Below, one piece after another: positions 5,306-26,388 of a stretch of 64,000 bases of DNA. Location of the stretch: positions 437,001 to 501,000 of the forward strand of contig NZ_AP027266.1 of assembly GCF_036322625.1 (NCBI RefSeq). The letters are read 5' to 3'. The notes beneath the pieces are model-generated. The model made no database searches, was not told the DNA's origin, and worked only from the letters and a program-made list of their open reading frames with translations. Made by a program: the position numbers and the translations under genes. Each line of letters begins with the position of its first letter. The first letter of the stretch is position 1. This DNA is from Roseicyclus marinus (GTDB lineage: Bacteria > Pseudomonadota > Alphaproteobacteria > Rhodobacterales > Rhodobacteraceae).

Positions 5306-5336
5306 CGCCGCCCCATTCGCAAGAGGAGAGACAGCG

Positions 5337-5807: not shown

Positions 5808-5843
5808 GCGCACCCGATCCGGTGCCCGAACCCCCAAAAGACG

Positions 5844-5867
5844 ATCGGCGGGCCATGGCCCGCCGAT
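5844..5867. terminator. Perfect 24-bp palindrome between convergent genes
   Basis: The 12-bp arms (ATCGGCGGGCCA and its complement) form a GC-rich hairpin between the cynS stop and the end of the convergent TRAP permease gene. The T-tract is weak, so it may act as a bidirectional terminator or mRNA end stabiliser. Confidence 0.6.
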
Positions 5868-5900
5868 TGCCGTTTCAGCGTGGCGCTCAGTCCATGGCGC

Positions 5901-7193: not shown

Positions 7194-7690
7194 AGCGGAT
7201 CCTCCTCGTGATTGTCCGCGGGGTCGACCATCGGTCCGGTGATGGCGATGGCGGCTGCGGCAAGGGCGGAGAGGGCGAAGCTTGCCCCGATGAAGAGGTA
7301 GAGCGGCCCGCGCGGCAGGCGCAGCGCCTGGCTCACCTCGGAGATGCGGGCGGCATTGAGGCCGTGGCGCAAGAAGAGCCAGGCCAGAAGGCACAGGATG
7401 CCCACCACCAAGAGGGCGATCAGCGCCCGCCACCAGCCCATCCAGGCCTGGCCGATCAGCCGGTCGAACAGGTCGATGGTCAGATGCGCGCCCGCGACCG
7501 TCACCAGCGGCAGGCCGCAAAAGACCACGAGCGCCATCAGATGTTCGGTGATGTCATGTGCGCCGTAGATCGGGGCGCCGAAGAGGCGGCGGCCGATGAC
7601 ATCGGCAAAGGTCAGCACGACCATGGACATCAGGACGATGGCCATGACCGTCTCGACCGCGCGCCGCAGCGCCCAGGCGGTTGAAAGCAT
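7190..7690 (-). CDS. dctQ: TRAP transporter small membrane subunit (DctQ family)
   Basis: A 166-residue protein with about four membrane segments and the DctQ signatures VIGRRLFGAPIYGAHDITEHLM and the following GLPLVTVAGAHLTIDL. It links the binding protein to the large channel subunit. The ATG at 7690 has an ideal ribosome site (GGGAGGATACCCAC). An in-frame extension further upstream runs through a repeat element and is not believable. The gene is separated from dctP by 222 nt holding the repeats. Confidence 0.9.
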   Translation of the reverse strand: MLSTAWALRRAVETVMAIVLMSMVVLTFADVIGRRLFGAPIYGAHDITEHLMALVVFCGLPLVTVAGAHLTIDLFDRLIGQAWMGWWRALIALLVVGILCLLAWLFLRHGLNAARISEVSQALRLPRGPLYLFIGASFALSALAAAAIAITGPMVDPADNHEEDPL

Positions 7691-7750
7691 GTGGGTATCC
7701 TCCCCCGAAAGCGGGACGGGGATGGACCCGTCCCTTTGCGGCCCGATGCC

Positions 7751-7911
7751 TTGGAGCGCGGCGCGTTCATTCGCAGTCACGCGTCGCGCTCCAACCTTCT
7801 GATTTCGCATGTCCGGGGAGCCCAAAACCGGTTCCCACTTTTGCGCGACATGCTTCTTGATTTCGCATGTCCGGGGAGCCCAAAACCGGTTCCCACTTTT
7901 GCGCGACATGC
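7751..7911. repeat. Stem-loop repeat element, one long copy plus a tandem second hairpin unit
   Basis: A first hairpin (TTGGAGCGCG... with ...CGCGCTCCAA, 7751-7794) is followed by a 47-bp unit at 7807-7853. That unit starts GCATGTCCGG, contains AAAACCGGTTCCCACTTTTG and ends CGACATGC. The same 47-bp unit recurs identically at 7865-7911, giving a 58-bp period. A third, slightly diverged copy with its own first hairpin lies at 33951-34043. GCATGTC/GACATGC can pair as a terminal stem. The right end sits 1 nt from the dctP stop codon. It may act as a 3' UTR stabiliser or partial terminator between dctP and dctQ. Confidence 0.85.
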
Positions 7912-11202: not shown

Positions 11203-12387
11203 ATGGTCCGGCTCAAAGCAACGCCAGACACGGTGACCCAAGTGACCACGATCGACCGCATCGAAACCCTCATCCTCGATATCCCCACGATCCGTGGGCA
11301 TGTCCTGTCGATGGCGACGATGCGGACCCAGACCGCCGTTCTGGTGCGCATCCGGTTTTCCGACGGCTCCGAAGGTTTGGGCGAGGGCACGACCATCGGC
11401 GGTTTGAGCTATGGTCCCGAAAGCCCCGAAAGCATCCGCTCGGCCATCGACACCTATCTGGCACCTGCCCTGACGGGCCGCGCCGCCGATGATGTGAACG
11501 GCGCGATCCAGCTGATGGACCATGTCGCGCGCGGCAACCGCATCGCCAAGACCGCCGTTGAAATCGCGCTCTGGGATGGTCTGGGCAAGCGGCTGGGCGT
11601 GTCGGTCGCGCAGCTGTTCGGCGGTGCCGTCCACAGCCGCCTGCCGGTGGCCTGGACGCTTGCCTCGGGCAATTCCGACACCGACATCGCCGAGGCCGAG
11701 GCGATGATCGCCAAGGGTCGCCACAACATCTTCAAGCTCAAGATCGGCAAGCGCTCCGTCGCCGAGGATGTGGCCCATGTCGCGCGGATCAAATCCGCCC
11801 TGGGCGATGCCGCCAGCATCCGCGTGGATGTGAACCAGACCTGGACCCTGGCCGATGCCCGTCGCGGGCTGCCCGCGCTGCAAGATGCCGGGTGCGCCCT
11901 GGTCGAACAGCCCGTCGCGGCCCGCTATCTCAATGCCATGGCGGAGCTGACCCGCGCCTACGAGATCGCGGTCATGGCCGACGAGGCGCTGAATGGTCCC
12001 GAGGATGCGCTGGCCGTGGCCAGCCGGGGGGGCGCCGATGTCTTTGCGGTCAAGATCGCGCAATCGGGTGGCCTCAAGCGCGCGGCCGAAGTCGTGGCGA
12101 TCGGGCAGGCCGCAGGGCTTGGCCTGTACGGCGGCACGATGCTGGAAACCGGTCTCAGCACGGCGGCGGCATCGCAATTGTTTGCCACGGTCGAGCGGCT
12201 GGATTGGGGAACCGAGCTGTTCGGACCGCTGCTTTTGACCGCCGACATCCTGGCCCAGCCCATCATCTACCGCGATTTCCATGTCGAGGTGCCGCAAGGC
12301 CCCGGCATCGGTGCAGCCCTCGACCCCGACAAGATCGAATTCTACCGCCGCGACCGCACGACCCGCGTCGCGGCGGCGGGCGCATAG
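11203..12387 (+). CDS. catB: Muconate cycloisomerase
   Basis: An enolase-superfamily enzyme that lactonises cis,cis-muconate to muconolactone. The catalytic set is present: Lys178/Lys180 (FKLKIGK), metal ligands Asp209 (VDVNQ), Glu235 (VEQP) and Asp260 (ADEA), Lys284 (VKIAQSGG) and the late ETGL segment. The ATG at 11203 gives 394 residues. A GTG at 11242 would give 381 and the family-like beginning [15 protein letters not shown] cannot choose firmly. It lies directly ahead of benA, so benzoate oxidation and muconate lactonisation are co-expressed. Confidence 0.93.
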
Positions 12388-12422: not shown

Positions 12423-13805
12423 ATGTTCACGCAAAGCACACTCGACGACCTGTCCAACCGTCTTGACGGCATGGTGCAGGACGATCCCGAAAACGGCATT
12501 TTCCGTGCCCGGCGGGACATGTTCACCGATGCCGAGCTTTTCGAGCTGGAGATGAAGCACATCTTTGAAGGCAACTGGATCTACATGGCCCATGAAAGCC
12601 AGATCCCGAACCCCGGCGATTATTTCACCCTGCACATGGGCCGCACGCCTGTCGTCATCACCCGCGACAAGGACGGCAATCTGAACGCGCTGGTCAATGC
12701 CTGCTCGCACCGGGGCGCGATGCTGTGCCGGTTCAAGCGGCGCAACCAGAAGACCTTCACCTGCCCGTTCCACGGCTGGACCTTTTCCAACACCGGCAAG
12801 CTCTTGAAGGTGAAGGACCCGAACGGCGCGGGCTACCCCGAGCAGTTCAACAAGGACGGCAGCCACGATCTGACCAAGGTCGCGCGGTTCGAGAATTATC
12901 GCGGCTTCCTGTTCGGTTCGCTCAATGCCGATGTGAAACCGCTCGAAGAATATCTGGGCGAGGCGCGGCACATGATCGACATGATCGTGGACCAGGCCGA
13001 CGACGGGCTCGAGGTGCTGCGCGGCGCGTCCACCTATACCTATGACGGCAACTGGAAGCTTCAGGCCGAAAACGGGGCCGATGGCTATCACGTGTCCTCG
13101 GTGCACTGGAACTACGTCGCCACCACCGCCCACCGGACCGAGGATGGGAAAGAGGACCAGATCAAGGCGACCGACGCCTCCAAATGGTCCAAGCAGCGCG
13201 GCGGTTTCCATTCCTACGAGAACGGTCACCTGCTCTTGTGGACGCAATGGGCCGATCCGACCAACCGCCCCAACTATCCGCGCCTGGCGGAATGGACGGA
13301 AAAATACGGGCAGACCAAGGCCGAATGGATGGTGGGCGTTCTGCGCAACCTGTGCCTTTATCCCAACGTCTTCCTGATGGATCAGTTTTCCAGCCAGATC
13401 CGCGTGTTCCGCCCCATCAGCGTCGACCAGACCGAGGTGACGATCTACTGCATCGCCCCCAAGGGCGAGCCGCAGGAGGCCCGCACCCGCCGCATCCGCC
13501 AGTACGAGGATTTCTTCAACGCGTCCGGCATGGCGACCCCCGACGACACCGAGGAATTCCGCGCCACCCAGCGGGGCTATGCAGGTGCCGCGCATGCCAA
13601 GTGGAACGACCTGACGCGCGGTGCCACCCAGTGGATCCAGGGGCCCGACGAAGACGCGAAAGCCCTGGGCGTGAACCCGATCCTGTCCGGCGCCCGGACC
13701 GAGGACGAGGGGCTTTTCGTCATCCAGCACAGCCAGTGGACCGAGCGGATGGCGGACGCCATCGCCAAGGAACGCACCACCGCCCCCGCCGTCGCGGCCG
13801 AATGA
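12423..13805 (+). CDS. benA: Benzoate 1,2-dioxygenase, alpha (large) subunit
   Basis: A 460-residue Rieske oxygenase subunit. With BenB and BenC it adds O2 to benzoate to form the cis-diol. The Rieske ligands are Cys94/His96 (CSHRG) and Cys114/His117 (CPFHGW). The mononuclear iron site lies in [15 protein letters not shown]. The ATG at 12423 follows a strong ribosome site (AAGGGAGGAGACCCGCC); the open frame continues upstream over catB but that is not used. The close family also contains toluate and anthranilate dioxygenases. The BenD and cat genes nearby favour benzoate. Confidence 0.93.
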
Positions 13806-13819
13806 GGAGGGACCAGACA

Positions 13820-14335
13820 ATGACCATCACCACACCCATCCGTGCCGAGATGACCTTTGACGAGATCCAGGCCTTTCTGCATGCCGAGGCCCGCGCGCTC
13901 GATGATCGCGACTGGGATACCTGGCTGAGCTTCTACCACAAGGATTGCCCCTTCTGGATGCCCGCATGGGATGACGAGGACCAGCTGACCGAAGACCCGG
14001 CGAACGAGATGTCCTTGATGTATTACCCCAACAAGCAGGGGATCGAGGATCGCGTGTTCCGGATCAAGACCGACCGGTCCTCGGCCACGTCGCTGCCCGA
14101 GCCGCGCACCAACCACAACCTGTCGAATATCGAGGTTGTGGAGCGCGACGGCACGACGATCCGGCTACGCTTCAACTGGCTGACGCTGTCCTACCGCTAC
14201 GGCAAGACGGATCAGCATTGGGGCACGTCCTATTACACGATCGACACCGCCGAAGGGCGGCCGCTCATCACCGACAAGAAGGTGGTGCTGAAGAACGACC
14301 GTATCCACCACGTGATCGACGTCTACCACATCTGA
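13820..14335 (+). CDS. benB: Benzoate 1,2-dioxygenase, beta (small) subunit
   Basis: A 171-residue ring-hydroxylating dioxygenase beta subunit (NTF2-like fold) that packs with BenA. It contains the family segments LHAEARALDDRDWDTWLSFY and RTNHNLSNIEV. The ATG at 13820 has GAGGAGGGACCAGACA just upstream and starts 14 nt after benA. Length is normal. It has no catalytic role of its own. Confidence 0.92.
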   Translation: MTITTPIRAEMTFDEIQAFLHAEARALDDRDWDTWLSFYHKDCPFWMPAWDDEDQLTEDPANEMSLMYYPNKQGIEDRVFRIKTDRSSATSLPEPRTNHNLSNIEVVERDGTTIRLRFNWLTLSYRYGKTDQHWGTSYYTIDTAEGRPLITDKKVVLKNDRIHHVIDVYHI

Positions 14336-14409: not shown

Positions 14410-15432
14410 ATGTCCAGCTACAACATCGCGCTCAATTTCGAGGATGGCGTCACCCGCGTCATCACCTGTGACGGTGACGAAAAGGTGACCGACGCCGCGT
14501 TCCGGCAAAAGATCAACCTGCCGATGGATTGCCGCGACGGGGTCTGCGGCACCTGCAAATGCTTCGCCGAAAAGGGTGAGTACGAGCTCGAATTCTACAT
14601 GGACGAATCCATGTCGGACGAGGAAGCCGCCGAAGGCTACGTGCTCACCTGCCAGATGGTTCCGCAAAGCGATTGCGTGATCCGCGTGCCGGCCTCGTCG
14701 GCCGTGTGCAAGACCGCGCCCGAGGCGGTGCAGGGCGAGGTTCTGGGCGTTGACCGCCTGTCGGACACGTCCTTTGGCCTGCGGGTGAAACTGGCTCGGC
14801 CCATGGGCTTTTTGCCCGGCCAATACGTCAACGTCACCGTGCCGGGCACGAAGGCGCATCGGTCCTATTCCTTTTCGTCGGCCCCCGGCAGCGACGAGGC
14901 GAGCTTTCTCATCCGCAACCTGCCCGGTGGCGTGATGAGCGGCTATCTGGCCGAGCGCGCGCAACCCGGCGATGCCGTCACGCTGACGGGTCCGATGGGC
15001 GCGTTCTACCTGCGCCCCGTCACGCGGCCCCAGCTGTGGCTTGCGGGCGGCACGGGGCTTGCCCCCTTCCTGTCGATGCTGGAGCAGCTGGCCGAGCAAG
15101 GCAGCGACCAGCCCGTGCGGCTCTACTACGCCGTCACCCGCGCCGCCGATCTGGTGGAGCTGGACCGCGTTCAGGCGCTGGCCGCCCGGATCGGCAAGGT
15201 CGAGGTCATCACGATCCTTGCCGCAGCCGAGGATGATCACCCGAAAAAGGGCTTCGTCACCGACCACCTGACTGCCGATGACCTGAACGCGGGCGATGTG
15301 GATGTCTACCTTTGCGGTCCGCCGCCGATGGTCGATGCCGTACGCGCCCATTTCACCACCCTGGGGATCGAGCCCGCCAACTTCTTCTACGAGAAGTTCA
15401 ACCCCACCGAAGCCGAGGCCGTCGCGGCATGA
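14410..15432 (+). CDS. benC: Benzoate dioxygenase reductase
   Basis: A 340-residue NADH-dependent electron-transfer protein for BenAB. The N-terminal plant-type ferredoxin domain binds a 2Fe-2S cluster with Cys41, Cys46, Cys49 and Cys81. The FAD domain carries RSYSFSSAPG, and the NAD domain carries the LAGGTGLAPFLSML and CGPPPMVDAV motifs. It is preceded by a ribosome site GGGAGGAG and overlaps benD by four bases (ATGA). Confidence 0.95.
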   Translation: MSSYNIALNFEDGVTRVITCDGDEKVTDAAFRQKINLPMDCRDGVCGTCKCFAEKGEYELEFYMDESMSDEEAAEGYVLTCQMVPQSDCVIRVPASSAVCKTAPEAVQGEVLGVDRLSDTSFGLRVKLARPMGFLPGQYVNVTVPGTKAHRSYSFSSAPGSDEASFLIRNLPGGVMSGYLAERAQPGDAVTLTGPMGAFYLRPVTRPQLWLAGGTGLAPFLSMLEQLAEQGSDQPVRLYYAVTRAADLVELDRVQALAARIGKVEVITILAAAEDDHPKKGFVTDHLTADDLNAGDVDVYLCGPPPMVDAVRAHFTTLGIEPANFFYEKFNPTEAEAVAA

Positions 15433-16205
15433 CCCGGTTCGCCGACAAGGTGATGGTCGTCACGGGGGCCGCCCAAGGCATCGGTCGCCGTGTCGCCGAA
15501 CGCGCGGCGGGCGAGGGCGCGCGCGTTCTGGTCGTCGACCGCTCGGACCACCGCAATGACGTGGTGGCCGCGATCCGCACGGCCGGTGGCGAGGCGGAGG
15601 CTTTTGCCGCCGATCTGGAAACGTGGGACGGCTGTGCCGCGGCGATGGCCGAGGCGGTCCGCCATTGGGGCCGGATCGACATCCTGATCAACAACGTGGG
15701 CGGCACGATCTGGGCGAAGCCGTTTGAGCATTACGAGCCGAACCAGATCGACGCCGAAATCCGCCGGTCGCTCTTCCCGACGATCTACTGCTGCCGGGCG
15801 GCGCTTGACCACATGTTGCCGCAGGGCGCGGGCGTGATCGTCAATGTCTCGTCCATCGCCACCCGTGGCCTGAACCGCGTGCCTTATGCAGCGGCCAAGG
15901 GCGGCGTGAACGCGATCACCGCAAGCCTTGCCTGGGAAGTGGCCGAACGCGGCATCCGCGTGGTGGCGACCGCACCGGGCGGCACCGAAGCCCCCCCGCG
16001 GCTCACGCCCCGCAACCCGAATGCGGCACAGGAACAGCCACAGGATTGGTACCAGACCATCGTCGATCAGACGATCCAGTCCTCGCTGATGAAACGCTAT
16101 GGAACGCTCGACGAACAGGCAGGCCCGATCCTGTTCCTGGCGTCGGACGATGCCTCCTACATCACCGGCGTCACGCTGCCGGTCGGCGGGGGCGATCTTG
16201 GCTAG
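15429..16205 (+). CDS. benD: Benzoate cis-diol dehydrogenase (SDR)
   Basis: A 258-residue short-chain dehydrogenase that converts 1,6-dihydroxycyclohexa-2,4-diene-1-carboxylate to catechol and CO2. It shows the NAD motif TGAAQGIG (residues 12-19), NNVGG, the catalytic Ser in NVSS, and Tyr/Lys in YAAAKGG. The ATG overlaps the benC stop. Its position after benABC identifies the substrate; the fold alone would not. Confidence 0.93.
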   Translation: MTRFADKVMVVTGAAQGIGRRVAERAAGEGARVLVVDRSDHRNDVVAAIRTAGGEAEAFAADLETWDGCAAAMAEAVRHWGRIDILINNVGGTIWAKPFEHYEPNQIDAEIRRSLFPTIYCCRAALDHMLPQGAGVIVNVSSIATRGLNRVPYAAAKGGVNAITASLAWEVAERGIRVVATAPGGTEAPPRLTPRNPNAAQEQPQDWYQTIVDQTIQSSLMKRYGTLDEQAGPILFLASDDASYITGVTLPVGGGDLG

Positions 16206-16252: not shown

Positions 16253-17428
16253 ATGAAACGCGCAACCCTGGCGACCCTTGCGGCCGCCACCACCCTCGCT
16301 TTGCCTGCCGCTGCCGACACGGTCGATATCGGCGTGCTTTTGCCCTTTTCGGGCGTCTATGCCGCGCTCGGCAACGAGATCGAGGCGGGCTTTGCCCTGG
16401 GCCTCGAGACCTATGGCAACGACCTCGATGTCGAGATCATCCTCCACCGCGAGGATACCGAGGTGACGCCCGCCACGGGTCTTGCCCGCACCCGCAAGCT
16501 GATCTTGCAAAGTGACGTGGACGCCATCGTCGGTGTCGTGTCTTCGGGCGTGCTGGGCGCCGTGCGCGACATGGTCGACGGCGCGGGCGTGCCGCTGATA
16601 GTCGCCAATGCGGGCAATGATGCCGCCACCGGGGTCGATTGCAGCCCGTGGATCACCCGCGTGTCCTTCTCCAACAGCCAGGTGAACCGCCCGATGGGCC
16701 GCTGGATGGCCGAGCAGGGGATCGAAACGGTCTATACGCTTGCCCCCGATTACGCCGCCGGTCGCCAGATGATCGAGGGCTTCACCGGGGCCTTTGTCGA
16801 GGCAGGCGGCACCATCGTCGGCAGCGACTACACGCCCTTCCAGCAGACGCAGGATTTCGGCCCCTATATCGCGCAGGCGCAGGCCTCGGGTGCGGATGCG
16901 CTTTTCGTCTTCTACGCGGGCGGGGAGGCGATCTCCTTTGTCAATCAATACGCAAGCTTTGGCGCGGGCGATGATCTGCCGCTTTACGGCTCGGGCTTCC
17001 TGACTTCGCAGCTCTATGTCGATGCGCAGGGACAATCGGCCGAGGGCGTGATCACCGCGCTGCATTACGTGCCGACCATCGACAATGCCGAGAACGCGGC
17101 CTTTGTCGCGGCGTTCCGCGATGCCACGGGCCGGGTGCCGTCGGAATATGCGGTGCAGGGCTATGACGCCGCCCGCGCCCTGATCGAGGCGCTGGAAACC
17201 GGCGCACGCGACCGCGAAACTTTGGGCGCGGCGCTGCGTCAGGTCAGCTTCGACGGCCCGCGCGGCGCGCTGTCCATCGATCCGGCGACCAACAACGTGG
17301 TCCAGCCGATCTACGTCTATGAAACGGTTCAGGGTGCCAACGGCATGACCCAGACCGTTCTGGCGCAACTGCCGGCCGAGGCCGATCCGGTGAACGGCTG
17401 CCAGATGCCGTCCTTGCCCACGAACTGA
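16253..17428 (+). CDS. ABC binding protein of the branched-chain amino acid/aromatic acid type
   Basis: A 391-residue periplasmic receptor of the LivK/amide-urea family. The signal peptide is MKRATLATLAAATTLALPAAA, followed by VDIGVLLPFSGVYAALG. The ATG at 16253 has a strong ribosome site (CCGGAGGAACCACCACA). It follows benD and precedes four Liv-type genes, so benzoate or another aromatic acid is the likely ligand; this is inference from context. A strong terminator separates it from the permease genes, which would favour excess binding protein. Confidence 0.85.
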   Translation: MKRATLATLAAATTLALPAAADTVDIGVLLPFSGVYAALGNEIEAGFALGLETYGNDLDVEIILHREDTEVTPATGLARTRKLILQSDVDAIVGVVSSGVLGAVRDMVDGAGVPLIVANAGNDAATGVDCSPWITRVSFSNSQVNRPMGRWMAEQGIETVYTLAPDYAAGRQMIEGFTGAFVEAGGTIVGSDYTPFQQTQDFGPYIAQAQASGADALFVFYAGGEAISFVNQYASFGAGDDLPLYGSGFLTSQLYVDAQGQSAEGVITALHYVPTIDNAENAAFVAAFRDATGRVPSEYAVQGYDAARALIEALETGARDRETLGAALRQVSFDGPRGALSIDPATNNVVQPIYVYETVQGANGMTQTVLAQLPAEADPVNGCQMPSLPTN

Positions 17429-17436
17429 GCCCCGGC

Positions 17437-17467
17437 GGGCCGCCCGACACGATCGGGCGGCCCTTTT
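17437..17467 (+). terminator. Intra-operon rho-independent terminator/attenuator
   Basis: A stem GGGCCGCCCGA / TCGGGCGGCCC (17437-17447 and 17453-17463) with loop CACGA, followed by TTTT. It lies between the binding-protein gene and the first permease gene of the same importer. Partial read-through would give more receptor than membrane parts. Confidence 0.8.
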
Positions 17468-17491
17468 CCCATGCTGTCACGAGGCGTTGCC

Positions 17492-18361
17492 ATGACCCAA
17501 GACCTGTCGTTCTGGACCTTGCAGACGCTGAACGCGTTGCAACTGTCCATGCTGCTTTTCCTGCTCTCCATCGGCCTGACGGTGATTTTCGGGCTGATGC
17601 ATTTCGTCAACCTTGCCCATGGGGCGCTTTATGCGCTGGGGGCCTATATCGCGGCGAGCATCGCAGGCGTTGCGGGGTTCTGGGTCGCGATCATAGCCGC
17701 CCCTGTCGGCGTCGCGCTGGTGGGGGTCGTGCTTTACGGCGGGTTGATCCAGCGGATGCGCAAATCCGGGCCGATGGCGCAGGTCCTGGTGACCTTCGGG
17801 CTTATTTTCGCGCTCCTTGATCTGACGCGCATCTTCTGGGGCGATCTGGCGCTGGCCATGTCCATGCCGCAGGTGCTGTCGGGGCAGGTCGATCTTTTGG
17901 GCGTGAGCTATCCGGCCTATCGCCTGTTCATCATCCTGCTCGGGGGCGCGATTTTCGTAGCACTCGCGCTGGTGCTGTCGCGCACGCAGATCGGTGCGAT
18001 GATCCGCGCGGGCGTCGACAATGACGCGATGGCTGCCTGCCTTGGCATCAACGTGGAGCGGCTGTTTTTCGTCGTCTTTTGCGTGGGTTGCGCGCTGGCG
18101 GGACTGGCCGGTGCGGTCGCTGCACCGCTCCTTAGCGTGACGCCCGGCATGGGTCTGCAGATCCTGATCCCCACGCTGATCGTGATCGTGATCGGGGGCC
18201 TTGGCTCGCTCAAGGGCGCGGTCGCGGGGTCGCTGATCTACGGGTTCGTCCAGACATTCGGCGCGGTGCTCGCGCCGCAGCTTGCCTCCGTTCTCATCTA
18301 CGCGCTCTTGGCCGCGGTCCTCGTGATCAAGCCGGTGGGCCTGTTCCCCGCGAAAGGATAA
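17492..18361 (+). CDS. livH: ABC permease, LivH type
   Basis: A 289-residue inner-membrane permease with the LivH signatures GLTVIFGLMHFVNLAHGALYALGAY near the N terminus and GIAVERLF-like GINVERLFFVVFCVGCALAGLAGA in the middle. The ATG at 17492 is preferred by alignment to the family start; an in-frame ATG at 17471 adds seven residues. It ends 4 nt before the second permease gene. It works with the other Liv-type subunits here, probably importing an aromatic acid. Confidence 0.9.
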   Translation: MTQDLSFWTLQTLNALQLSMLLFLLSIGLTVIFGLMHFVNLAHGALYALGAYIAASIAGVAGFWVAIIAAPVGVALVGVVLYGGLIQRMRKSGPMAQVLVTFGLIFALLDLTRIFWGDLALAMSMPQVLSGQVDLLGVSYPAYRLFIILLGGAIFVALALVLSRTQIGAMIRAGVDNDAMAACLGINVERLFFVVFCVGCALAGLAGAVAAPLLSVTPGMGLQILIPTLIVIVIGGLGSLKGAVAGSLIYGFVQTFGAVLAPQLASVLIYALLAAVLVIKPVGLFPAKG

Positions 18362-18365
18362 CCGC

Positions 18366-19370
18366 ATGTTCCGTCACACCCCTCTTCGCTACGCGGTTCT
18401 GGCCATCCTTGCGGTTGCCGCGCTCGTCCAAACCTTTACGGCAGGTTACTTTGGGCTCGAAATTCTTATCGAAATCCTAATCCTGTGCCTCCTTGTTCTG
18501 GCGCTTGACCTGGTCGCGGGCTTCGGTGGCATGGTCTCGCTCTGCCACGGCGCGCTGATGGGCGTGGGGGCCTATGCCTTCGTCGCGCTGGGCACTCTGG
18601 CGGGGCTCGATCCGTGGCTTGCGGCGCTGGCCGCCGTGGCCATCACCGCCGCGATGGCCTGGGTCATCGGCGCGATCTGCGCGCGCAGCCATGGCATCTA
18701 TTTCATCATGGCGACGCTGGCCTTTGGGCAGATGGCCTATTCCTACGTGTTTGAATCGCCGCTGTTCGGGGGCGATGACGGAATGGGCGGAATTGACCGG
18801 TTCGATCTGGGCGCCATCGGTCTTGACCTGAACGACAGCCGGACCTTTGCGCTTTTCTGTCTTGCCGTCGTCGTGCTGGCCTATCTGTTTTCCGTCGCGA
18901 TCCTGCGCTCGGGGCTGGGCCGGTCGCTCTCGGGCGTCATGCACAACGAGAAGCGGATGAAGGCGCTGGGGCTGAACACCTGGCGGATCAAGGCCGATGT
19001 CTTTGGCCTGTCGGGCATCATCGCGGGCGTGGCGGGTGTTCTGGCCGCGCAGCACATCATGTTCATTTCGCCTGGCCTTCTGAACTGGACCGTGTCGGGC
19101 GAGGCGCTGGTCGTCGTCATCCTGGGCGGGCTGGGCACGCTGGTGGGACCGTTGGTGGGTGCTGCGGCCTTTGTCGTGATGAAGCACGAGCTGGGCGAGA
19201 TCACGACCTATTGGCACCTTGTCGTCGGCGTCATCCTGATCGCCGTGGTGATGAGCCGGGCCAATGGCATCTTTGGCTGGGTCGAGGCGCGCTGGGGGGC
19301 TGCCATAGAACGCCGCCTGACGGACGCCACCCGCAGCCCCGCAAAAAAGGAGGTTTCGACCGATGCTTGA
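18366..19370 (+). CDS. livM: ABC permease, LivM type
   Basis: A 334-residue membrane protein with the LivM hallmarks LDLVAGFGGMVSLCHGALMGVGAYAF and SHGIYFIMATLAFGQMAYS. It pairs with LivH to form the channel. Its end overlaps the ATPase gene by 8 nt, showing coupling. Length and hydrophobicity are normal for the family. Confidence 0.9.
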   Translation: MFRHTPLRYAVLAILAVAALVQTFTAGYFGLEILIEILILCLLVLALDLVAGFGGMVSLCHGALMGVGAYAFVALGTLAGLDPWLAALAAVAITAAMAWVIGAICARSHGIYFIMATLAFGQMAYSYVFESPLFGGDDGMGGIDRFDLGAIGLDLNDSRTFALFCLAVVVLAYLFSVAILRSGLGRSLSGVMHNEKRMKALGLNTWRIKADVFGLSGIIAGVAGVLAAQHIMFISPGLLNWTVSGEALVVVILGGLGTLVGPLVGAAAFVVMKHELGEITTYWHLVVGVILIAVVMSRANGIFGWVEARWGAAIERRLTDATRSPAKKEVSTDA

Positions 19371-20106
19371 GACGCGCAACCTGACCAAGAGCTTCGGCGC
19401 GGTGCATGTCACGCGGTCCGTCTCGCTCAAGCTGGAACGTGGCGAGCGGCGGGTGATCCTGGGCCCCAACGGGGCGGGCAAGACGACGCTGTTCAACCTG
19501 CTGGTGGGCGAGTTGACGCCCGATGGCGGCAGCGTCCACCTGGCGGGCGAGGATGTGACGGCGCTGTCCGTTCCGCGCCGCGCGCGCCGCGGCCTGTCGC
19601 GGAGCTACCAGAAGAACACGCTGTTCGACGGTCTGACGGTCGAGGAAAACCTGGCGCTGGCCGCCGCCGTGCCGACGGGCCATGCCACGCGGCTGTGGTC
19701 CGACAGCCTGCGCCAGCCGGAAATCCGGCAAACCGTGGCCGAGGTGGCCGAACAGGTGAACCTGATGCCCCACCTGCATGCCCGCGTGTCGGAAATCAGC
19801 TATGGCGTGCGCCGCCAGCTGGAGGTGGGCGTGGCGCTGGCGACCCGTCCGCTGGTCCTGTTGATGGACGAGCCGACAAGCGGCGTGGGGCCGGAGATGT
19901 CCAAGGGGTTCCATGACCTGTTGAACAACCTGCCGCGCGATCTGACGCTTTTGATCATCGAACATGACATGGACCTTGCCTTTGCCGTGGCCGACACGAT
20001 CACCGTCCTGAATTACGGCGAGGTCGTTTTCGACGGCCTGCCCGAGGAGGCGCGTGGATCGAAGCTGCTCAAGGACATCTATCTGGGGAGTTGGGAAGAT
20101 GCTTGA
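19363..20106 (+). CDS. livG: ABC ATPase, LivG type
   Basis: A 247-residue ATPase with Walker A (GPNGAGKT), the LivG-type SRSYQKNTLFDGLTVEENL region, Walker B (VLLMDEPTSGVG) and H-loop (LLIIEHDMDLAF). The signature region reads EISYGVRRQLEVG, lacking the usual LSGGQ (typically LSYGxQRxLE in LivG). This is normal for LivG. It overlaps both neighbours. Confidence 0.93.
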   Translation: MLETRNLTKSFGAVHVTRSVSLKLERGERRVILGPNGAGKTTLFNLLVGELTPDGGSVHLAGEDVTALSVPRRARRGLSRSYQKNTLFDGLTVEENLALAAAVPTGHATRLWSDSLRQPEIRQTVAEVAEQVNLMPHLHARVSEISYGVRRQLEVGVALATRPLVLLMDEPTSGVGPEMSKGFHDLLNNLPRDLTLLIIEHDMDLAFAVADTITVLNYGEVVFDGLPEEARGSKLLKDIYLGSWEDA

Positions 20107-20797
20107 TCTGAACGCCGTCTCGTCGGGTTATGGCGAAACGCAGGTGCTGCATGGCCTGAGCCTCAGGGCGGAACAGGGAAGGGTTCTTGCCATCCTCGGG
20201 CGCAATGGCGCGGGCAAGTCGACGACGCTCAAGACCATCATGGGCCTGTTGCCGACCAAGGGCGGTGCGATCACCTTCGAGGGGCGCGCGATGCCTGCCC
20301 GGCCCTTTGACGTGGCGAAATCGGGCATCGCCTATGTGCCCGAGACGCGCGACATCTTTCCGTCGCTCACCGTGCGCGAGAACCTCGAGATCGCGGCGGC
20401 CCGGTTCGGGGGCAAGGGGGCGGAATGGACGCTTGACCGGGTGGTCGACCTGTTCCCGCGCCTGGGCGAGCGGATGAAGAACGGCGGCGCGGAATTGTCG
20501 GGCGGGGAACAGCAGATGCTGGCCATCGCGCGCGGCCTGTTGATGAACCCGCGCCTGTTGATCCTGGACGAGCCGACCGAAGGATTGGCCCCGATCATCG
20601 TCAAGCTGATCCATGACAAGCTGATGGATCTGAAGCGCGCGGGCCTGTCCATGGTTCTGGTGGAACAGAATTTCGGCTTTGCCACATCGCTGGCCGATGA
20701 CGTGGCCGTGGTCAGCAAGGGGCAGGTGGTCTGGTCCGGCAGCCCTGCGGAAATCCGCGCCGATGAAGAGGCGCAGCACCGCTGGCTTGGCGTGTGA
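20099..20797 (+). CDS. livF: ABC ATPase, LivF type
   Basis: A 232-residue ATPase with Walker A (GRNGAGKS), LivF-specific YVPETRDIFPSLTVRENLE, signature ELSGGEQQMLAIAR, and Walker B LLILDEPTEGLAP. The ATG at 20099 lies inside the end of livG. It is the last gene of the long plus-strand run that begins at dadA or catB and is followed by a terminator. Confidence 0.94.
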   Translation: MLDLNAVSSGYGETQVLHGLSLRAEQGRVLAILGRNGAGKSTTLKTIMGLLPTKGGAITFEGRAMPARPFDVAKSGIAYVPETRDIFPSLTVRENLEIAAARFGGKGAEWTLDRVVDLFPRLGERMKNGGAELSGGEQQMLAIARGLLMNPRLLILDEPTEGLAPIIVKLIHDKLMDLKRAGLSMVLVEQNFGFATSLADDVAVVSKGQVVWSGSPAEIRADEEAQHRWLGV

Positions 20798-20806
20798 TCC
20801 ATGATG

Positions 20807-20838
20807 GGGCGGGGCCGGACCCCCGCCCTATTCTTTTA
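20807..20838 (+). terminator. Rho-independent terminator after livF
   Basis: The stem GGGCGGGG / CCCCGCCC (20807-20814, 20821-20828) with a 6-nt loop is followed by TATTCTTTT. It closes the ben/liv operon, and overlaps the end of the convergent LysR gene. Confidence 0.75.
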
Positions 20839-21726
20839 CAAGATCTTGCGCGCGACTTTCTGGGCGAGTTTCACGAAATTCGCCACATGCACGCCCTGTT
20901 CGTCGAGCCGGTAGCTGACCGACAGGGCGGTGCGCGCGATCTCGGGCTCGATACGCAGGAATTTCATTCCCTTGCGGGGGGCATTGGCCACGGATTCGGG
21001 CACGATGCACACGCCCTCGCCCACCGAGACGAGGCCGAGCGCGGTTTGCAGATCCATGCACCAGACGCGCATCGGAACCATGAACCCCGCCGCCTCGCAG
21101 GCATTCAGGACGAAATCGGCGTAACTGGGGCGGGGATATTCGGGATATAGGATCAGGTTGTGGGTCTGCAGCCGTTCCAGTTTCGCCACCGTGCGGCCAC
21201 CGGTATCGACGACATCGGGCAGCGCCAGGATCAGCTTTTCCTCGAGCAATTCGCGGGTGACGAATTCGGCGTCCTGGAGCGCGGGCCGGGCAAAGGCCAC
21301 GTCGATCTCGCGCGAGACGAGCGCGCGGTGCAGCTGCGCGTTGTTCATCGGGATGAGGGACAGGTTCACCTCGGGGTAATTGGCGCGGAAGGATTTGATG
21401 ATGTTGGGCAGGATGCCAAAGGTCGCGGAGCCCACGAAGCCGATGCGCAAGCGCCCCTCGGCCCCCTGGCCGAGCCGCCGCACCTCGAGCCGTGTATCTT
21501 CCATCTGGGCCAGGATCGACTTGCCGCGCGCCAGCAGGCGTTCGCCCGCCTGGGTCAGCGTGATCGCGCTGCGGCCCCGGTTGAACAGGATCGCGCCCAG
21601 TTCTTCCTCCAGCTGCTTGATCTGGCGGCTGAGGGGCGGTTGCGCCATGTCCAGCCGTTCGGCGGCACGGCCGAAATGCAATTCCTCGGCCACGGCGACG
21701 AAATAGGTCAGTTGACGGAAATTCAT
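20836..21726 (-). CDS. LysR-family regulator, CatR/BenM-like
   Basis: A 296-residue LysR regulator with the helix-turn-helix in HFGRAAERLDMAQPPLSRQIKQLEEELGAILFNR. The effector domain starts with GRLRIGFVGSATFGILPNIIKSFR. The AQPPLSRQI recognition segment is typical of the CatR/BenM/CbbR branch, whose members sense cis,cis-muconate or benzoate. Placed between the ben/liv operon and the catechol dioxygenase gene, it is a good candidate activator of both. It lies downstream of the dioxygenase gene on the same strand but behind a terminator. Confidence 0.85.
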   Translation of the reverse strand: MNFRQLTYFVAVAEELHFGRAAERLDMAQPPLSRQIKQLEEELGAILFNRGRSAITLTQAGERLLARGKSILAQMEDTRLEVRRLGQGAEGRLRIGFVGSATFGILPNIIKSFRANYPEVNLSLIPMNNAQLHRALVSREIDVAFARPALQDAEFVTRELLEEKLILALPDVVDTGGRTVAKLERLQTHNLILYPEYPRPSYADFVLNACEAAGFMVPMRVWCMDLQTALGLVSVGEGVCIVPESVANAPRKGMKFLRIEPEIARTALSVSYRLDEQGVHVANFVKLAQKVARKIL

Positions 21727-21820: not shown

Positions 21821-22696
21821 TCACTCGGCCGCGACGGCCTGTTCGGCGGCCGCTGCCTTGAGCACGAAGTCGAAGGTGAAATGCAGGTCCGTGCCCAGCT
21901 CCTTGGCGGCGGGCTTGAACTTGCCGATAAGGCTTTCCTTGACGGCGAAGACGCTGTCTTCGTCCAGCCACTTGCTGTCGGCGTCGTAGATCTGGCTGAT
22001 CAGCGGGCGATAGCCATCGCGCGAGATGATGAAGTGCATGTGGCCGGGGCGGTTGGGGTGGTGGCCCATGAAGCGCAAGAGCTCGCCCGCGGTTTCGTCA
22101 TCGGGGATCGGGTAGGGCACGGGGCGCACGGCGACAAAGGCGTAATGGCCGTTCTCATCCGTCTCGAAGCGGCCGCGCAGGTTGTATTCCGGCTGGTCGG
22201 GGTCGAGGTTTTCGTAGATGCCGTTGGGCGCATCTTCCCAGACATCGAGCGTGACGCCCGCGATGCCATTGCCGGCTTCGTCGCGGATATAGCCTTCGAA
22301 CCAGACGGTTTCCTCGTTGTCGTAATGCTTCTGGATGGTGGAGGCACCCTTGGGCAGGACCGGCGGGTTCTCGCGGTAGAAGGGGCCCAGAACCGTCGAT
22401 TCGCTCTCGTTGCCTTCGACGGGGTTGGTCATCATGTCGACCAGAACCTCGATGCCCAGGATGTCGCCGAGCAAGATGAATTCCTGCCGGTTGTCGTTGC
22501 AGAGCTTGCCGGCGCGGGCGAGGTAATCGCAGGCGGCGAGGAATTCGTGGTGCTGCAGCTTCACGTCCTTCACGAAGCCATGCAGGTGGCGGATCAGCGC
22601 GGTCGCGATCTCGCGCTCACGGTCGGTGATGTCGCCATGCTTGCCAAGGCTCGCGATCACGACGTCGGTGATGTTCTGTTCGTTGACGATGCCCAT
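21821..22696 (-). CDS. catA: Intradiol ring-cleavage dioxygenase (catechol 1,2-dioxygenase type)
   Basis: A 291-residue non-haem Fe(III) dioxygenase that cleaves catechol to cis,cis-muconate. The four iron ligands can be placed at Tyr161 (NGIYEN), Tyr195 (RPVPYPIPD), His219 and His221 (RPGHMHF). An N-terminal helical dimerisation domain precedes the ESTVLGPFY segment. The ATG at 22696 has an ideal ribosome site (CCAGGAGGAGATTGCAACC). The sequence also resembles the hydroxyquinol dioxygenase branch. The ben and catB genes favour catechol. It is divergent from the enol-lactonase operon. Confidence 0.88.
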   Translation of the reverse strand: MGIVNEQNITDVVIASLGKHGDITDREREIATALIRHLHGFVKDVKLQHHEFLAACDYLARAGKLCNDNRQEFILLGDILGIEVLVDMMTNPVEGNESESTVLGPFYRENPPVLPKGASTIQKHYDNEETVWFEGYIRDEAGNGIAGVTLDVWEDAPNGIYENLDPDQPEYNLRGRFETDENGHYAFVAVRPVPYPIPDDETAGELLRFMGHHPNRPGHMHFIISRDGYRPLISQIYDADSKWLDEDSVFAVKESLIGKFKPAAKELGTDLHFTFDFVLKAAAAEQAVAAE

Positions 22697-22805
22697 GGTT
22701 GCAATCTCCTCCTGGCATGGTTGCGTCGGGTCACGGGGATGGCCCAGCGGCCCCCGTTGCCCGACATCCTGCGTCCGATGCCAGTCTCCTTCCCATGCCT
22801 GCCAC

Positions 22806-22821
22806 GGTATCGGGTGATACC
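22806..22821. promoter_or_regulatory. GGTATC-N4-GATACC inverted repeat, copy 2
   Basis: It is identical to the site at 9084-9099, here inside CGGTATC-GGGT-GATACCG. It lies 110 bp upstream of the catA start and 137 bp upstream of the divergent operon, so one factor could control both directions and the MarR/TRAP promoter. Confidence 0.6.
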
Positions 22822-22828
22822 GTATCAT

Positions 22829-22855
22829 GTCAAGATGATCTCATAGTGAGAATGA
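22829..22855. promoter_or_regulatory. Probable MarR-type operator at catA/catD divergent promoter
   Basis: It contains the inverted repeat TCTCA-TAG-TGAGA within GTCAAGAT...TGAGAATGA. It matches 9608-9634 at 21 of 27 positions. The conserved blocks are GTCAAGAT, ATCT and TGAGAATGA. Confidence 0.65.
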
Positions 22856-22957
22856 TTTTGCCATGTCCGGGTATCGGCCCATACCCGCCCCGGCATGGAG
22901 GCGGCGGCGGCGGCATGGCACGAGGAGGGGGATAGTCCGCAAGATCCGGAGGCTTTG

Positions 22958-23338
22958 GTGCTTACGACCTTTCAAGAGGTTCAGGAAAGCCTGAACGCGA
23001 CCCCTCACCTGCTGCGCCTCGGGCGGCTGTTTTCGGAAACCGTGCTGGTCGAGGTCGACGGGCAGGAGATCTACCTGAGCTTCGATCAAGGCCGCATCGC
23101 CAGCGTGACCGAGGGGCCCAGCCGCAAGACGCCCTGGCGGTTCGCGCTGCGCACCGATGGCGCGGCGCTGGAAGAATTCTGGCGCGCGCGGCCCGAGCCC
23201 GGATTTCACGACATCTTTGGCCTGGTGAAGATCGGGCGGGGGCGGATCGACGGCGATATCCTGTGCCTTGTGAAGAACCTGCGGTTCTTCAAGGAGGTCA
23301 TGGGTCTGGCCCGCATGGACGAGGGGAAAGCAGCATGA
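22958..23338 (+). CDS. SCP2-like small protein in the beta-ketoadipate operon
   Basis: About 126 residues, resembling an SCP2 sterol-carrier-like domain: a beta-rich start (ETVLVEVDGQEIYLSFDQGRI) and the C-terminal GLVKIGRGRIDGDILCLVKNLRFFKEVMGLARM. The GTG at 22958 has GGAGG five bases upstream. An ATG at 22895 would give 147 residues but lacks a ribosome site. It overlaps the next gene by ATGA, so it is the first gene of that operon. It stands where a muconolactone isomerase might be expected but does not resemble one. Function unknown; a hydrophobic ligand or acyl-CoA binding role is possible. Confidence 0.7.
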   Translation: MLTTFQEVQESLNATPHLLRLGRLFSETVLVEVDGQEIYLSFDQGRIASVTEGPSRKTPWRFALRTDGAALEEFWRARPEPGFHDIFGLVKIGRGRIDGDILCLVKNLRFFKEVMGLARMDEGKAA

Positions 23339-24192
23339 GTTTCGAGCCGATCACCGGGCGCTACCTGACCGTCAGCGTCGCGGGCGCGCCGCGCCGCATC
23401 TATGTCGAGGAAGCGGGCGCGGGCCGCCCGGTTTTGTGCCTGCACACGGCGGGGGCCGATACGCGGCAATGGCGGCACCTGATGAACGATGCCGCCGTGA
23501 CGGCGGGCAATCGCCTGATCGCCTTCGACATGCCCTGGCATGGCAAATCGCTGCCGCCCGAGGGCTGGGAGGTGGAGGAATACCTGCTGACAACAGAGGC
23601 CTATATCGAAACCGTTCTGGCCGTGGTCGATGGGATGGGGCTGGACCGCCCCGTGCTGGCGGGCTGTTCCATGGGCGGGCGTATCGCGCTGCAACTGGCA
23701 GCCCTCCACCCCGAGACATTCAGCGGCTTCATCGCGATCGAGGCGTCGGATTTCCAGCCTGCCTGGTATGATATCGACTGGTTCCACCGCCCCGATGCCC
23801 ATGGCGGCGAAATGGGTGCGGCGCTGGTATCGGCCAATATCTCGCCCCATGCGCCGCGCGTCGAACGCTGGAACACGCTGTGGATGTTCATGCAGAGCGG
23901 GCCGGGCGTGTTCCGCGGCGATCTGAGTTTCTACACCAAGGATGACAGCCTGATCGGGCGCCTGTGCCGGATCGATACGTCGAAAACGCCGGTGCATCTG
24001 TTGGTCGGGGCCTATGACCTGACCTGCACGCCCGAGGATGCGCGCCGCACCGCCGCCGCCATTCCCGGCGCCAGCATCGCGGTGATGGACGAGCTGGGCC
24101 ATTTCCCGATGAGCGAACACCCCGAGGGGTTCCGCCCCTTTTTCCTCGATGCGTTGGCGCGGATGCCCGTGGCGCGCGCCGATGCCGCCTGA
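23335..24192 (+). CDS. catD: Alpha/beta hydrolase, probable 3-oxoadipate enol-lactonase
   Basis: A 285-residue alpha/beta hydrolase that probably opens 3-oxoadipate enol-lactone to beta-ketoadipate. The nucleophile Ser112 lies in GCSMGG, the acid in VGAYDLTC, and the His in DELGHFPMSEHP. The oxyanion-hole region is LHTAGAD. It is translationally coupled to the SCP2-like gene, and the BKACE gene follows after 13 nt. The lactonase role follows from catA/catB nearby; the fold by itself is generic. Confidence 0.78.
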   Translation: MSFEPITGRYLTVSVAGAPRRIYVEEAGAGRPVLCLHTAGADTRQWRHLMNDAAVTAGNRLIAFDMPWHGKSLPPEGWEVEEYLLTTEAYIETVLAVVDGMGLDRPVLAGCSMGGRIALQLAALHPETFSGFIAIEASDFQPAWYDIDWFHRPDAHGGEMGAALVSANISPHAPRVERWNTLWMFMQSGPGVFRGDLSFYTKDDSLIGRLCRIDTSKTPVHLLVGAYDLTCTPEDARRTAAAIPGASIAVMDELGHFPMSEHPEGFRPFFLDALARMPVARADAA

Positions 24193-24205
24193 AAGGACAA
24201 GGATC

Positions 24206-25060
24206 ATGACCAATCCCTGCATCATCTGCGTGGCCATCACGGGCTCGCTGCCCACCAAGGCGAACAATCCCGCCGTGCCGATCACGGTTTCGGAACAGGT
24301 GGAATCCACCCATGAGGCCTTCGAGGCCGGGGCCACCATCGTCCACGCCCATGTCAGGAACGACGATCAGACCCCCTCGTCCGACCCCGAGAAATTCGCG
24401 CGGCTCAAGGAAGGTTTGGAGAAACATTGCCCCGGCATGATCATCCAGTTCTCGACCGGTGGTCGCTCGGGCGCGGGTCAGGCGCGGGGGGCGATGTTGC
24501 CGCTCCGCCCCGACATGGCGTCGTTGTCGGTGGGATCGAACAATTTCCCCACGCGGGTCTATGAGAACCCGCCGGAGCTGGTGGATTGGCTGGCGTCCGA
24601 GATGCTGACCTACGATGTGAAGCCCGAGATCGAGGCCTTCGACCTCAGCCATATCCTGAAAGCCAAGGACATGGCCGACAAGGGCCAGTTGGCCGGCACG
24701 CCCTACGTGCAATTCGTGATGGGGGTGAAGAACGCCATGCCCGTGGATCGGGAGGTCTTTGATTTTTACATCAAGACCGTCCATCGCCTGTTCGGCGACA
24801 ACGCGCCTTGGTGCGCCGCTGGCATCGGCCAGCAGCAGTTGACCCTCAACGAATGGGCCATCGCGGCGGGCGGCCATGCGCGCACGGGGCTGGAGGATAA
24901 CGTGCGGCTCGACCGCGACCGGCTTGCGCCGTCCAACGCCGCCCTCGTCCGCCGCGCGGTCGAGATCTGCGACAAGAACGAACGCCCCGTCGCCACATGG
25001 GAAGAGGCGCGCAAGATCCTTGGCCTGCGTCTGCCCGCCAAGGCGGAGGTTGCGGCATGA
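24206..25060 (+). CDS. BKACE (DUF849) beta-keto acid cleavage enzyme
   Basis: A 284-residue TIM-barrel enzyme of the BKACE family. These Zn enzymes condense a beta-keto acid with acetyl-CoA to give acetoacetate and a new acyl-CoA. The N-terminal [22 protein letters not shown] is typical, and zinc-ligand histidines are His47 and His49 (IVHAHVRND). Other family segments are QFSTGG and [14 protein letters not shown]. Between an enol-lactonase-like gene and a SCOT-type transferase, the expected substrate is beta-ketoadipate, giving succinyl-CoA plus acetoacetate. The ATG at 24206 is used; its stop overlaps the next gene. Confidence 0.9.
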
Positions 25061-25761
25061 AAAAGCTCTACGCTTCCGCGGCGGATGCGCTCGACGGTGT
25101 TCTGTTTGACGGCATGCTGATCGCGGCGGGGGGCTTTGGCCTCTGCGGTATTCCGGAACTGCTGATCGACGGGATCGTGGCATCGGGCGTCAAGGATCTG
25201 ACCGTGGCGTCGAACAACGCGGGCGTCGATGATTTCGGCTTGGGCAAGCTTTTGGCCACCCGCCAGATCAAGAAGATGATGTCGTCCTACGTGGGCGAAA
25301 ACGCCGAATTCATGCGCCAGTATCTGAGCGGAGAGCTGGAGCTGGAATTCAACCCCCAAGGGACGCTGGCCGAGCGCATGCGCGCGGGCGGCGCGGGGAT
25401 TCCCGGTTTCTACACCAAGACGGGCGTCGGCACGGTCATCGCCGAGGGCAAGGAAGTGAAGACTTTCGACGGGCAGGATTACATCCTCGAACGCGGGATC
25501 TTCGCCGATCTGTCGATCGTCAAGGCTTGGAAAGCGGATGAGACGGGCAATGCGGTGTTCCGCAAGACGGCCCGCAACTTCAACCCGCCTGCTGCGATGT
25601 GCGGAAAGATCTGCATCATGGAGGTGGAGGAGATCGTGCCGACGGGATCGCTTGACCCCGACACGATCCACCTGCCCGGCATCTATGTGCATCGCCTGAT
25701 CCGAGGGCAGCACGAGAAGCGGATCGAGCAAAGAACAATCCGTCAGAGGGAGGGCGCCTGA
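25057..25761 (+). CDS. scoA: 3-keto-acid CoA-transferase subunit A (SCOT type)
   Basis: A 234-residue class I CoA-transferase alpha subunit. The segments [63 protein letters not shown] and the ending HEKRIEQRT are those of succinyl-CoA:acetoacetate transferases rather than PcaI. It would activate acetoacetate with succinyl-CoA. It overlaps the BKACE stop (ATGA) and abuts the B subunit. Confidence 0.9.
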
Positions 25762-26388
25762 ATGCCTTGGGACCGTAACCAGATGGCCGCCCGCGCCGCG
25801 AAAGAACTGCGTCAGGGCATGTATGTGAACCTTGGCATCGGCATCCCGACGCTGGTGTCGAACTACATCCCCGAGGGCATGACCGTGACCCTGCAATCGG
25901 AAAACGGGATGCTGGGCATGGGCCCCTTCCCCATCGAGGGGGAAGAGGACGCCGACCTGATCAATGCGGGCAAGCAGACCATCACCGAACTGCCCCACAC
26001 CGCCTATTTCGACAGCGCGACAAGCTTTGGCATGATCCGGGGCGGCAAGATCGCCATGGCGATCCTCGGCGCGATGGAAGTCAGCGAAAAGGGCGATCTG
26101 GCGAACTGGATGATCCCCGGCAAGCTGGTGAAGGGGATGGGCGGCGCGATGGATCTGGTCGCGGGCGTGGGCCGGGTTGTCGTCGTGATGGATCACGCCA
26201 ACAAGCATGGCGAGAGCAAGGTTCTGAAGGACTGCACCCTGCCCCTGACGGGCACCGGTGTGGTGGATCTGATCATCACGAACATGGGTGTGCTGGAGGT
26301 GGTCGAGGGTGGTCTGAAAATCCTCGAACTGGCCGATGGCGTGACCGAGGCCGATCTGCGCGCCGCCACGGAAGCCACGCTTGTGTGA
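25762..26388 (+). CDS. scoB: 3-keto-acid CoA-transferase subunit B (SCOT type)
   Basis: A 208-residue beta subunit carrying the catalytic glutamate in [12 protein letters not shown], with the N-terminal [11 protein letters not shown] and the C-terminal [12 protein letters not shown]. It pairs with the preceding subunit, and its ATG lies one base after that gene's stop. It ends the operon that starts with the SCP2-like gene. A matching thiolase is not in the window. Confidence 0.92.

Follow-up and report, generated by a model that had tools for sequence, protein, structure and literature searches.

The window considered here, a 64,000-nucleotide stretch of the Roseicyclus marinus genome (positions 437001-501000 of a single contig of 3.55 Mb, NZ_AP027266.1), holds a cluster of genes for aromatic degradation, comprising catB, benABCD, an ABC transporter, a LysR regulator, an intradiol ring-cleavage dioxygenase, and a row of five plus-strand genes between window positions 22958 and 26388 (Table 1). 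This row starts with a small open reading frame (ORF), continues with an alpha/beta hydrolase and a beta-keto acid cleavage enzyme (BKACE), and ends with scoA and scoB, the subunits of a CoA-transferase resembling succinyl-CoA:acetoacetate transferases (SCOT). The successive spacings are -4, 13, -4 and 0 bases, with four-base overlaps between the small ORF and the hydrolase gene and between BKACE and scoA, so that the five genes likely share one transcript; the dioxygenase and LysR genes lie on the opposite strand. A sequence-only reading of this DNA had proposed that the beta-ketoadipate pathway ends here with BKACE and a SCOT-type transferase instead of PcaIJ and PcaF. The hydrolase, BKACE and transferase subunits that it named are confirmed by profile matches and do form a tight row, at the start of which it omitted the small ORF of 126 aa, as it did the missing muconolactone isomerase gene, catC.

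The association of these genes is more than chance. In a collection scanned with the small ORF, whose closest relatives there belong to Roseicyclus and Roseibacterium (80-82%), the best 80 of 175 relatives' loci were kept, to which all collection counts given below refer: the hydrolase lies within 60 bases of the small ORF in 80/80, is directly followed by BKACE in 59/80, and precedes BKACE and scoA, in this order, in 27/80. The dioxygenase is present at 75 of these loci and BKACE at 60, several contigs stopping within the cluster and some loci belonging to genomes also found in the other samples.

No match to CatC (PF02426) was obtained in the R. marinus genome, with seven candidates scored. 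In a survey of the host's family (345 genomes, one per genus), relatives of the small ORF were detected in 30 genomes at E<=0.001, of which 24 were kept at E<=1e-40 and the six weaker ones dropped, and the hydrolase adjoins the small ORF in all 24. The small ORF and catB occur together in 22 genomes, the small ORF alone in two, and catB alone in three; of the 25 catB genomes, 22 thus have both the small protein, whose model shows an SCP2 fold (see below), and the hydrolase, and 20 of these 22 are devoid of catC. Among the three genomes with catB and no small ORF, two (G023 and G171) have catC adjoining catB, and the third (G254) has neither. Four loci (L127, L224, L226 and L228) read catA, catB, small ORF, hydrolase and lysR, with the pair directly following catB in the place that catC takes in G023, G130 and G171. 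Similarly, catC was found at none of the 80 collection loci within the sequence stretch examined, and 47 of the 49 collection genomes searched have no PF02426 match. From this co-occurrence we infer that the SCP2-fold protein and the hydrolase together replace CatC. This is the new part of the analysis, unnoticed by the sequence-only reading, and the reason to follow the locus up; no prior description of the pair as a CatC replacement was found in the open-access literature.

Several observations weigh against such a replacement. PF02426 is found in 17 of the 345 family genomes (16 above the cut-off), including two of the 24 with the small ORF, G130 and G239. The catC of G130 lies on a separate contig from the pair, accompanied by its own catB and by an ordinary catA, while the CatC-like gene of G239, located away from catB, is 62.5% identical to the G023 catC and may well be a working CatC. 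The pair and PF02426 also coexist in two of the 49 collection genomes, at 61 and 52 bits (cut-off 26.7), scores that are exceeded by those of the three catC genes adjoining catB (116-139 bits). Within catB genomes, the mutual exclusion of the small ORF and PF02426 gives p=0.057, and two genomes (G005 and G113) carry the small ORF without a called catB, it being understood that the catB search scored at most five candidates per genome and that catB counts may be too low. Finally, a PcaD above the cut-off is encoded elsewhere in the R. marinus genome (1257k).

The argument that PF02426 genes located away from catB are not CatC was dropped, as seven such genes (six strong ones and that of G239) are 38-63% identical to the G023 catC, and five of them are closer to it than is the catB-adjoining catC of G171 (52.7%), with L247 about equal (52.6%) and L251 less (38%); these genes are no longer taken to show that G239 lacks CatC. 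CatC-like PF02426 genes occur in seven genomes (L148 and L246-L251) within stretches where no catB-like match exceeds 21% identity. A short-chain dehydrogenase adjoins, and a LysR gene is nearby, in five of them (L148 and L246-L249); at L251 the dehydrogenase is farther off, and L250 has neither. At L138, the other catB locus of G239, no pair and no catC adjoin catB. In G254, the catA-catB locus (L134, 8168-10947) also lacks both, and a GST-like gene (211 aa, read by eye) directly follows catB and may represent a third way of achieving the isomerisation.

What is known of the two proteins themselves? The small one has no match to Pfam or NCBIfam families, and its structural model (mean pLDDT 91.4) has an SCP2 fold (Foldseek E 1.9e-5; 2cx7 with Z 12.9, rmsd 2.8 over 115 residues). 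It shares this fold with SCP2/UbiJ-type proteins, from which it differs by the lack of a Pfam match and by sharing an operon with a hydrolase of aromatic and lactone catabolism; with CatC it would share the job, the two being unrelated. H84, D85, D100, N107, R109 and K112 are among the residues invariant in 52 aligned close sequences, whereas H84 is kept in 8/11 and D85 in 3/11 of more distant relatives, a pattern that would fit a catalyst or, equally well, a binding partner. In contrast, S112, D228 and H256 of the hydrolase are invariant in 36 aligned sequences and in 11 distant ones, making it the better conserved partner of the pair; its model is less well defined (mean pLDDT 71.6, much of residues 139-202 below 50). 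Because the hydrolase adjoins the small ORF at every locus, co-occurrence speaks for the pair and cannot assign the isomerisation to either subunit. The SCP2-fold protein had been tried as sole candidate and was rejected when an apparently hydrolase-free locus, L127, proved to contain the hydrolase in a gap. Since the hydrolase is better conserved, and H84 and D85 are not always kept, the proposed replacement of CatC is confined to the pair and does not extend to one subunit.

Does the pair merely provide a second enol-lactonase, muconolactone being isomerised spontaneously or by an unrecognised enzyme elsewhere? The hydrolase had been called enol-lactonase-like, and what stands of this is a weak PcaD similarity, its 70.7 bits against the PcaD model TIGR02427 falling far under the cut-off of 255.85. 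This similarity, together with the invariant Ser-Asp-His set, would suit a lactonase without isomerase function, as would the existence of distant pairs outside catechol operons and the retention of a CatC-like gene in two genomes with the pair. However, a second enol-lactonase would be redundant in a genome with a canonical PcaD, and most genomes that carry the pair have no catC. We regard this explanation as rather unlikely.

The replacement of CatC can be set beside a bacterium of known phenotype. Plasmid p5SUD7 of Sulfitobacter sp. D7 carries catB, benABCD, the transporter, LysR, the dioxygenase, the small ORF (annotated 'hypothetical protein') and the hydrolase in identical order; unlike the window, its cluster is devoid of BKACE and scoAB, BKACE being located on another plasmid, p1SUD7. 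According to excerpts of the paper describing it, the strain grows on benzoate, and all catechol-branch genes are reported except CatC (PMC9873259). Sulfitobacter D7 thus completes the pathway with this cluster and without a recognised CatC, and the missing isomerase is a gap already recorded in the excerpted text, for which one gene pair can now be named as a candidate. On p1SUD7 (L235), BKACE lies beside a 3-hydroxyacyl-CoA dehydrogenase-like gene.

The window BKACE belongs, above the curated cut-off, to the NCBIfam equivalog '3-oxoadipate:acetyl-CoA acetyltransferase' (NF053568), and remains below that of the lysine-fermentation model (246.3 bits vs 382). The solved DUF849 proteins 3fa5, 3chv and 3no5 are near it (525-410 bits), none with a named function. 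In the alignment, an Arg follows the STGG motif in the window BKACE and in these three proteins, where Kce has an Ala; as a guess, this Arg would bind the distal carboxylate. The BKACE family was reportedly described by Bastard et al. in 2014. In the family survey, NF053568-type BKACE is found in 239/345 genomes, in 25/25 of those with catB above the cut-off and in 24/24 of those with the small ORF, 7/24 of which have PcaI, so that an ending through BKACE and a SCOT-type transferase is probably ordinary in the host's family. Mutual exclusion of PcaI and BKACE had been considered as a family-wide argument and was dropped, since 32/345 genomes carry both and the exclusion is not significant (p=0.11), a point that weighs against the proposed ending. 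The route from beta-ketoadipate and acetyl-CoA put forward in the sequence-only reading is supported by the NF053568 score and by the failure to find a PcaI-type subunit; it was largely anticipated, the BKACE step being already described. In the available text of PMC6449761, cleavage of beta-ketoadipate by BKACE-type (COG3246) proteins is proposed for the catechol regulons of Ralstonia and Cupriavidus, and in that of PMC8963497, BKACE is proposed for Methylobacterium pca clusters without pcaIJF.

A second NF053568 BKACE, at 179k of the genome (the window copy being at 461k), follows pcaG in the genome's own pcaHG operon, in which pcaC and pobA were read by eye, and is 92% identical at the DNA level to the window copy. 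In other genomes, BKACE copies of catechol (cat) and protocatechuate (pca) operons share 69-77% of their DNA sequence, with the exception of G023 (95.7%). Of 20 further stretches chosen for second copies, two of which proved to be copies already counted, 11 have BKACE after pcaG, and BKACE lies beside an annotated pcaG on several plasmids. In a BKACE tree with 51 rows, the pca copy of R. marinus groups with cat copies, apart from other pca copies, and the cat and pca labels need five changes, two of them forced by well-supported branches; eight rows belong to neither group, and the deepest split of the tree is weak (64/86). The catechol and protocatechuate branches meet only at the enol-lactone. 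As BKACE moves between branches that have nothing but this compound and the subsequent steps in common, its substrate is most simply 3-oxoadipate, shared by both operons. The third BKACE of the genome (L025:7031-7942, 843k) is under both NCBIfam cut-offs listed for it, and sits in an acyl-CoA dehydrogenase/CoA-ligase operon read by eye.

The last step of the row is more ambiguous, because the models matched by scoA and scoB (TIGR02429 and TIGR02428) cover PcaIJ and SCOT jointly by name and cannot decide between them. Pairwise scores, on which the SCOT assignment is based, place the window scoA nearest to solved SCOTs (326, 295 and 288 bits; AtoD, 190). As a reference, PcaI was defined by a pcaI-pcaJ-pcaF order read by eye beside the catA-catB locus L138 of G239 (5289-7884, catB-lysR-catA without the SCP2-fold pair; G239 also has the pair, with BKACE and scoAB, on another contig). 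This PcaI and the window scoA share about 40% identity, and against 3cdk the former scores 191 bits vs 326 for scoA. The reference is matched in 54/345 family genomes at E<=1e-70, and in the R. marinus genome not at all at this threshold. The only other two-subunit CoA-transferase among its own PF01144 matches is a second scoAB at 2473k/2476k, both of whose genes are 97% DNA-identical to those of the window and around which no pca genes were seen. Cluster copies in L152 and L153, the two nearest collection relatives having them, are 84-88% DNA-identical to the window scoAB, and the 97% identity within the genome is explained by gene conversion or by a duplication in the recent past. Two other ORFs split the second scoAB (L024:6509-9705, 2473k); the window genes are adjacent.

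The whole-genome check suggested by the sequence-only reading revealed no complete pcaIJF set, a lone PcaF-type thiolase being present at 2220k (L029:5824-7026, TIGR02430 680.5 bits, cut-off 597); the PcaF part of 'instead of PcaIJ/PcaF' is therefore only half right. This thiolase leaves room for a CoA-transferase acting as PcaIJ on 3-oxoadipate and for PcaF to finish the pathway, BKACE being accessory or acting on another beta-keto acid. The joint naming of the transferase models is compatible with such a scheme, and the authors of the Sulfitobacter D7 study assign PcaIJ and PcaF to their strain in the excerpted text (PMC9873259), of which the plasmids were compared here; these points weigh against an ending through BKACE. 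Nevertheless, the scheme is improbable, given the lack of a PcaI-type subunit, the proximity of scoA to SCOT, the near-identical scoAB copy outside any pca context, the location of the thiolase in an acyl-CoA dehydrogenase operon (read by eye), and the constant presence of BKACE in the catB genomes sampled. Under the preferred ending through BKACE and ScoAB, four further full-length thiolases of the genome could split acetoacetyl-CoA.

The dioxygenase raises a different question. Among solved structures it comes closest to (chloro)hydroxyquinol dioxygenases (208-169 bits, catechol 1,2-dioxygenases reaching at most 118), and it stays under the cut-off of the CatA model TIGR02439 (147.4 bits vs 392), which speaks against catechol as substrate and would suit a cluster for hydroxyquinol, where the lactone steps are not needed. 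This reading was set aside, and is very improbable, as benABCD and catB share the cluster, the other PF00775 matches of the genome are the pcaHG pair and a 161-aa ORF at 2854k (74.9 bits), no maleylacetate reductase was recognised by eye among the cluster genes (no model search being aimed at it), and benzoate supports growth of Sulfitobacter D7, which has this cluster, in the account excerpted from PMC9873259. The enzyme is probably a catechol 1,2-dioxygenase of the hydroxyquinol type. Equally hard to sustain is the action of BKACE on a different beta-keto acid, e.g., 3-oxoglutarate, which the promiscuity of the family noted in the available text of PMC4922564 would allow, but against which the equivalog score, the presence of BKACE in both cat and pca operons and its copying between them speak.

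Taken together, these data are probably best explained by a cluster leading from benzoate to central metabolism. From family models and synteny, BenABCD would convert benzoate into catechol, the intradiol dioxygenase would cleave catechol into cis,cis-muconate, and CatB would produce muconolactone. The SCP2-fold protein and hydrolase, acting as a unit for CatC and CatD/PcaD, would then convert muconolactone into the enol-lactone and 3-oxoadipate (beta-ketoadipate), a step suggested by gene co-occurrence. BKACE, with the support of its curated model and its exchange between operons, would turn 3-oxoadipate and acetyl-CoA into acetoacetate and succinyl-CoA. By family membership, ScoAB would transfer the CoA of succinyl-CoA to acetoacetate, and a thiolase encoded elsewhere in the genome would split acetoacetyl-CoA. 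The net result would be that of PcaIJ and PcaF, 3-oxoadipate and CoA yielding succinate and acetyl-CoA.

The boldest reading of this report, built on textbook chemistry and inference, goes beyond catechol. Muconolactone is a 2(5H)-furanone, and a shift of its double bond followed by hydrolysis gives 3-oxoadipate; applied to plain butenolide, these reactions would lead to succinic semialdehyde. The pair could thus be a general unit for opening butenolides, from alpha,beta-unsaturated lactone to enol-lactone to 4-oxo acid, acting on muconolactone in catechol operons and on the unsubstituted butenolide, yielding succinic semialdehyde, in the case of distant pairs. Eleven such pairs were inspected on plasmids of Rhodococcus, Peribacillus, rhizobia and haloarchaea (L275-L285); they were selected by eye from match lists, with no random-gene control. 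An annotated succinate-semialdehyde dehydrogenase is near four of them (L275, L276, L278 and L282), an aldehyde dehydrogenase and an SMP-30 lactonase near two (L277 and L283), and an AttM lactonase near three (L280, L281 and L285); none of succinate-semialdehyde dehydrogenase, SMP-30 and AttM is near the remaining two, both haloarchaeal (L279 and L284). This reading is tentative, and we would put it at somewhat below even chances. If it holds for butenolides generally, genes annotated as 'hypothetical protein plus hydrolase' in Alphaproteobacteria, Rhodococcus, Peribacillus and haloarchaea would gain a chemistry.

The window differs from the described BKACE systems in several respects. It agrees with the NF053568 family by its score, and places BKACE in one operon with a SCOT-type partner, in a catechol branch without catC. 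In the available text of PMC6449761, Ralstonia and Cupriavidus have BKACE in the ben-cat regulon, with a comparable proposed reaction, but catBCD, hence an ordinary catC, lies beside it, and this text mentions no SCOT. Methylobacterium resembles the window in having BKACE (G4) where pcaIJF is missing, and differs by the branch concerned, that of protocatechuate, the excerpted text presenting BKACE as one possibility (PMC8963497). Given the occurrence of BKACE in 239 of the family genomes, aromatic degradation annotated with 'PcaIJ/PcaF' may often run via acetoacetate.

Table 1. Genes of the benzoate cluster, with coordinates in the window and the evidence for each call
Feature	Position	Strand	Evidence
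catB, muconate cycloisomerase	11233..12387	+	TIGR02534 497.4 bits, cut-off 334.95; start set by codon scoring
benA, benzoate 1,2-dioxygenase large subunit	12423..13805	+	TIGR03229 803 bits, cut-off 781
benB	13820..14335	+	ORF call; order and annotation match Sulfitobacter D7 plasmid p5SUD7
benC, electron transfer component	14410..15432	+	ORF call; order and annotation match p5SUD7
benD, diol dehydrogenase	15429..16205	+	Short-chain dehydrogenase match; order as in p5SUD7
ABC transporter, branched-chain amino acid type, five genes	16253..20797	+	Peripla_BP_6 263 bits; five counterparts in p5SUD7
LysR regulator	20836..21726	-	PF00126/PF03466; in place at most of the 80 collection loci
Intradiol ring-cleavage dioxygenase	21821..22696	-	PF00775/PF04444
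Small ORF, SCP2-fold protein, 126 aa	22958..23338	+	No Pfam/NCBIfam match at E<=0.001; SCP2 fold of model
Alpha/beta hydrolase, candidate lactone hydrolase partner	23335..24192	+	PF00561
BKACE, predicted 3-oxoadipate:acetyl-CoA acetyltransferase	24206..25060	+	NF053568 502.4 bits, cut-off 350
scoA, SCOT-type CoA-transferase subunit A	25057..25761	+	TIGR02429 237.4 bits, cut-off 128.5; 3cdk, a solved SCOT subunit A, matched at 326 bits
scoB, SCOT-type CoA-transferase subunit B	25762..26388	+	TIGR02428 325.1 bits, cut-off 243.55; 97% DNA identity to second genomic scoB

The transporter probably serves the uptake of an aromatic acid. Outside the cluster, at window positions 5337-5807 and 4403-5305, a putative cyanase-like ORF lies next to an ABC ATPase.

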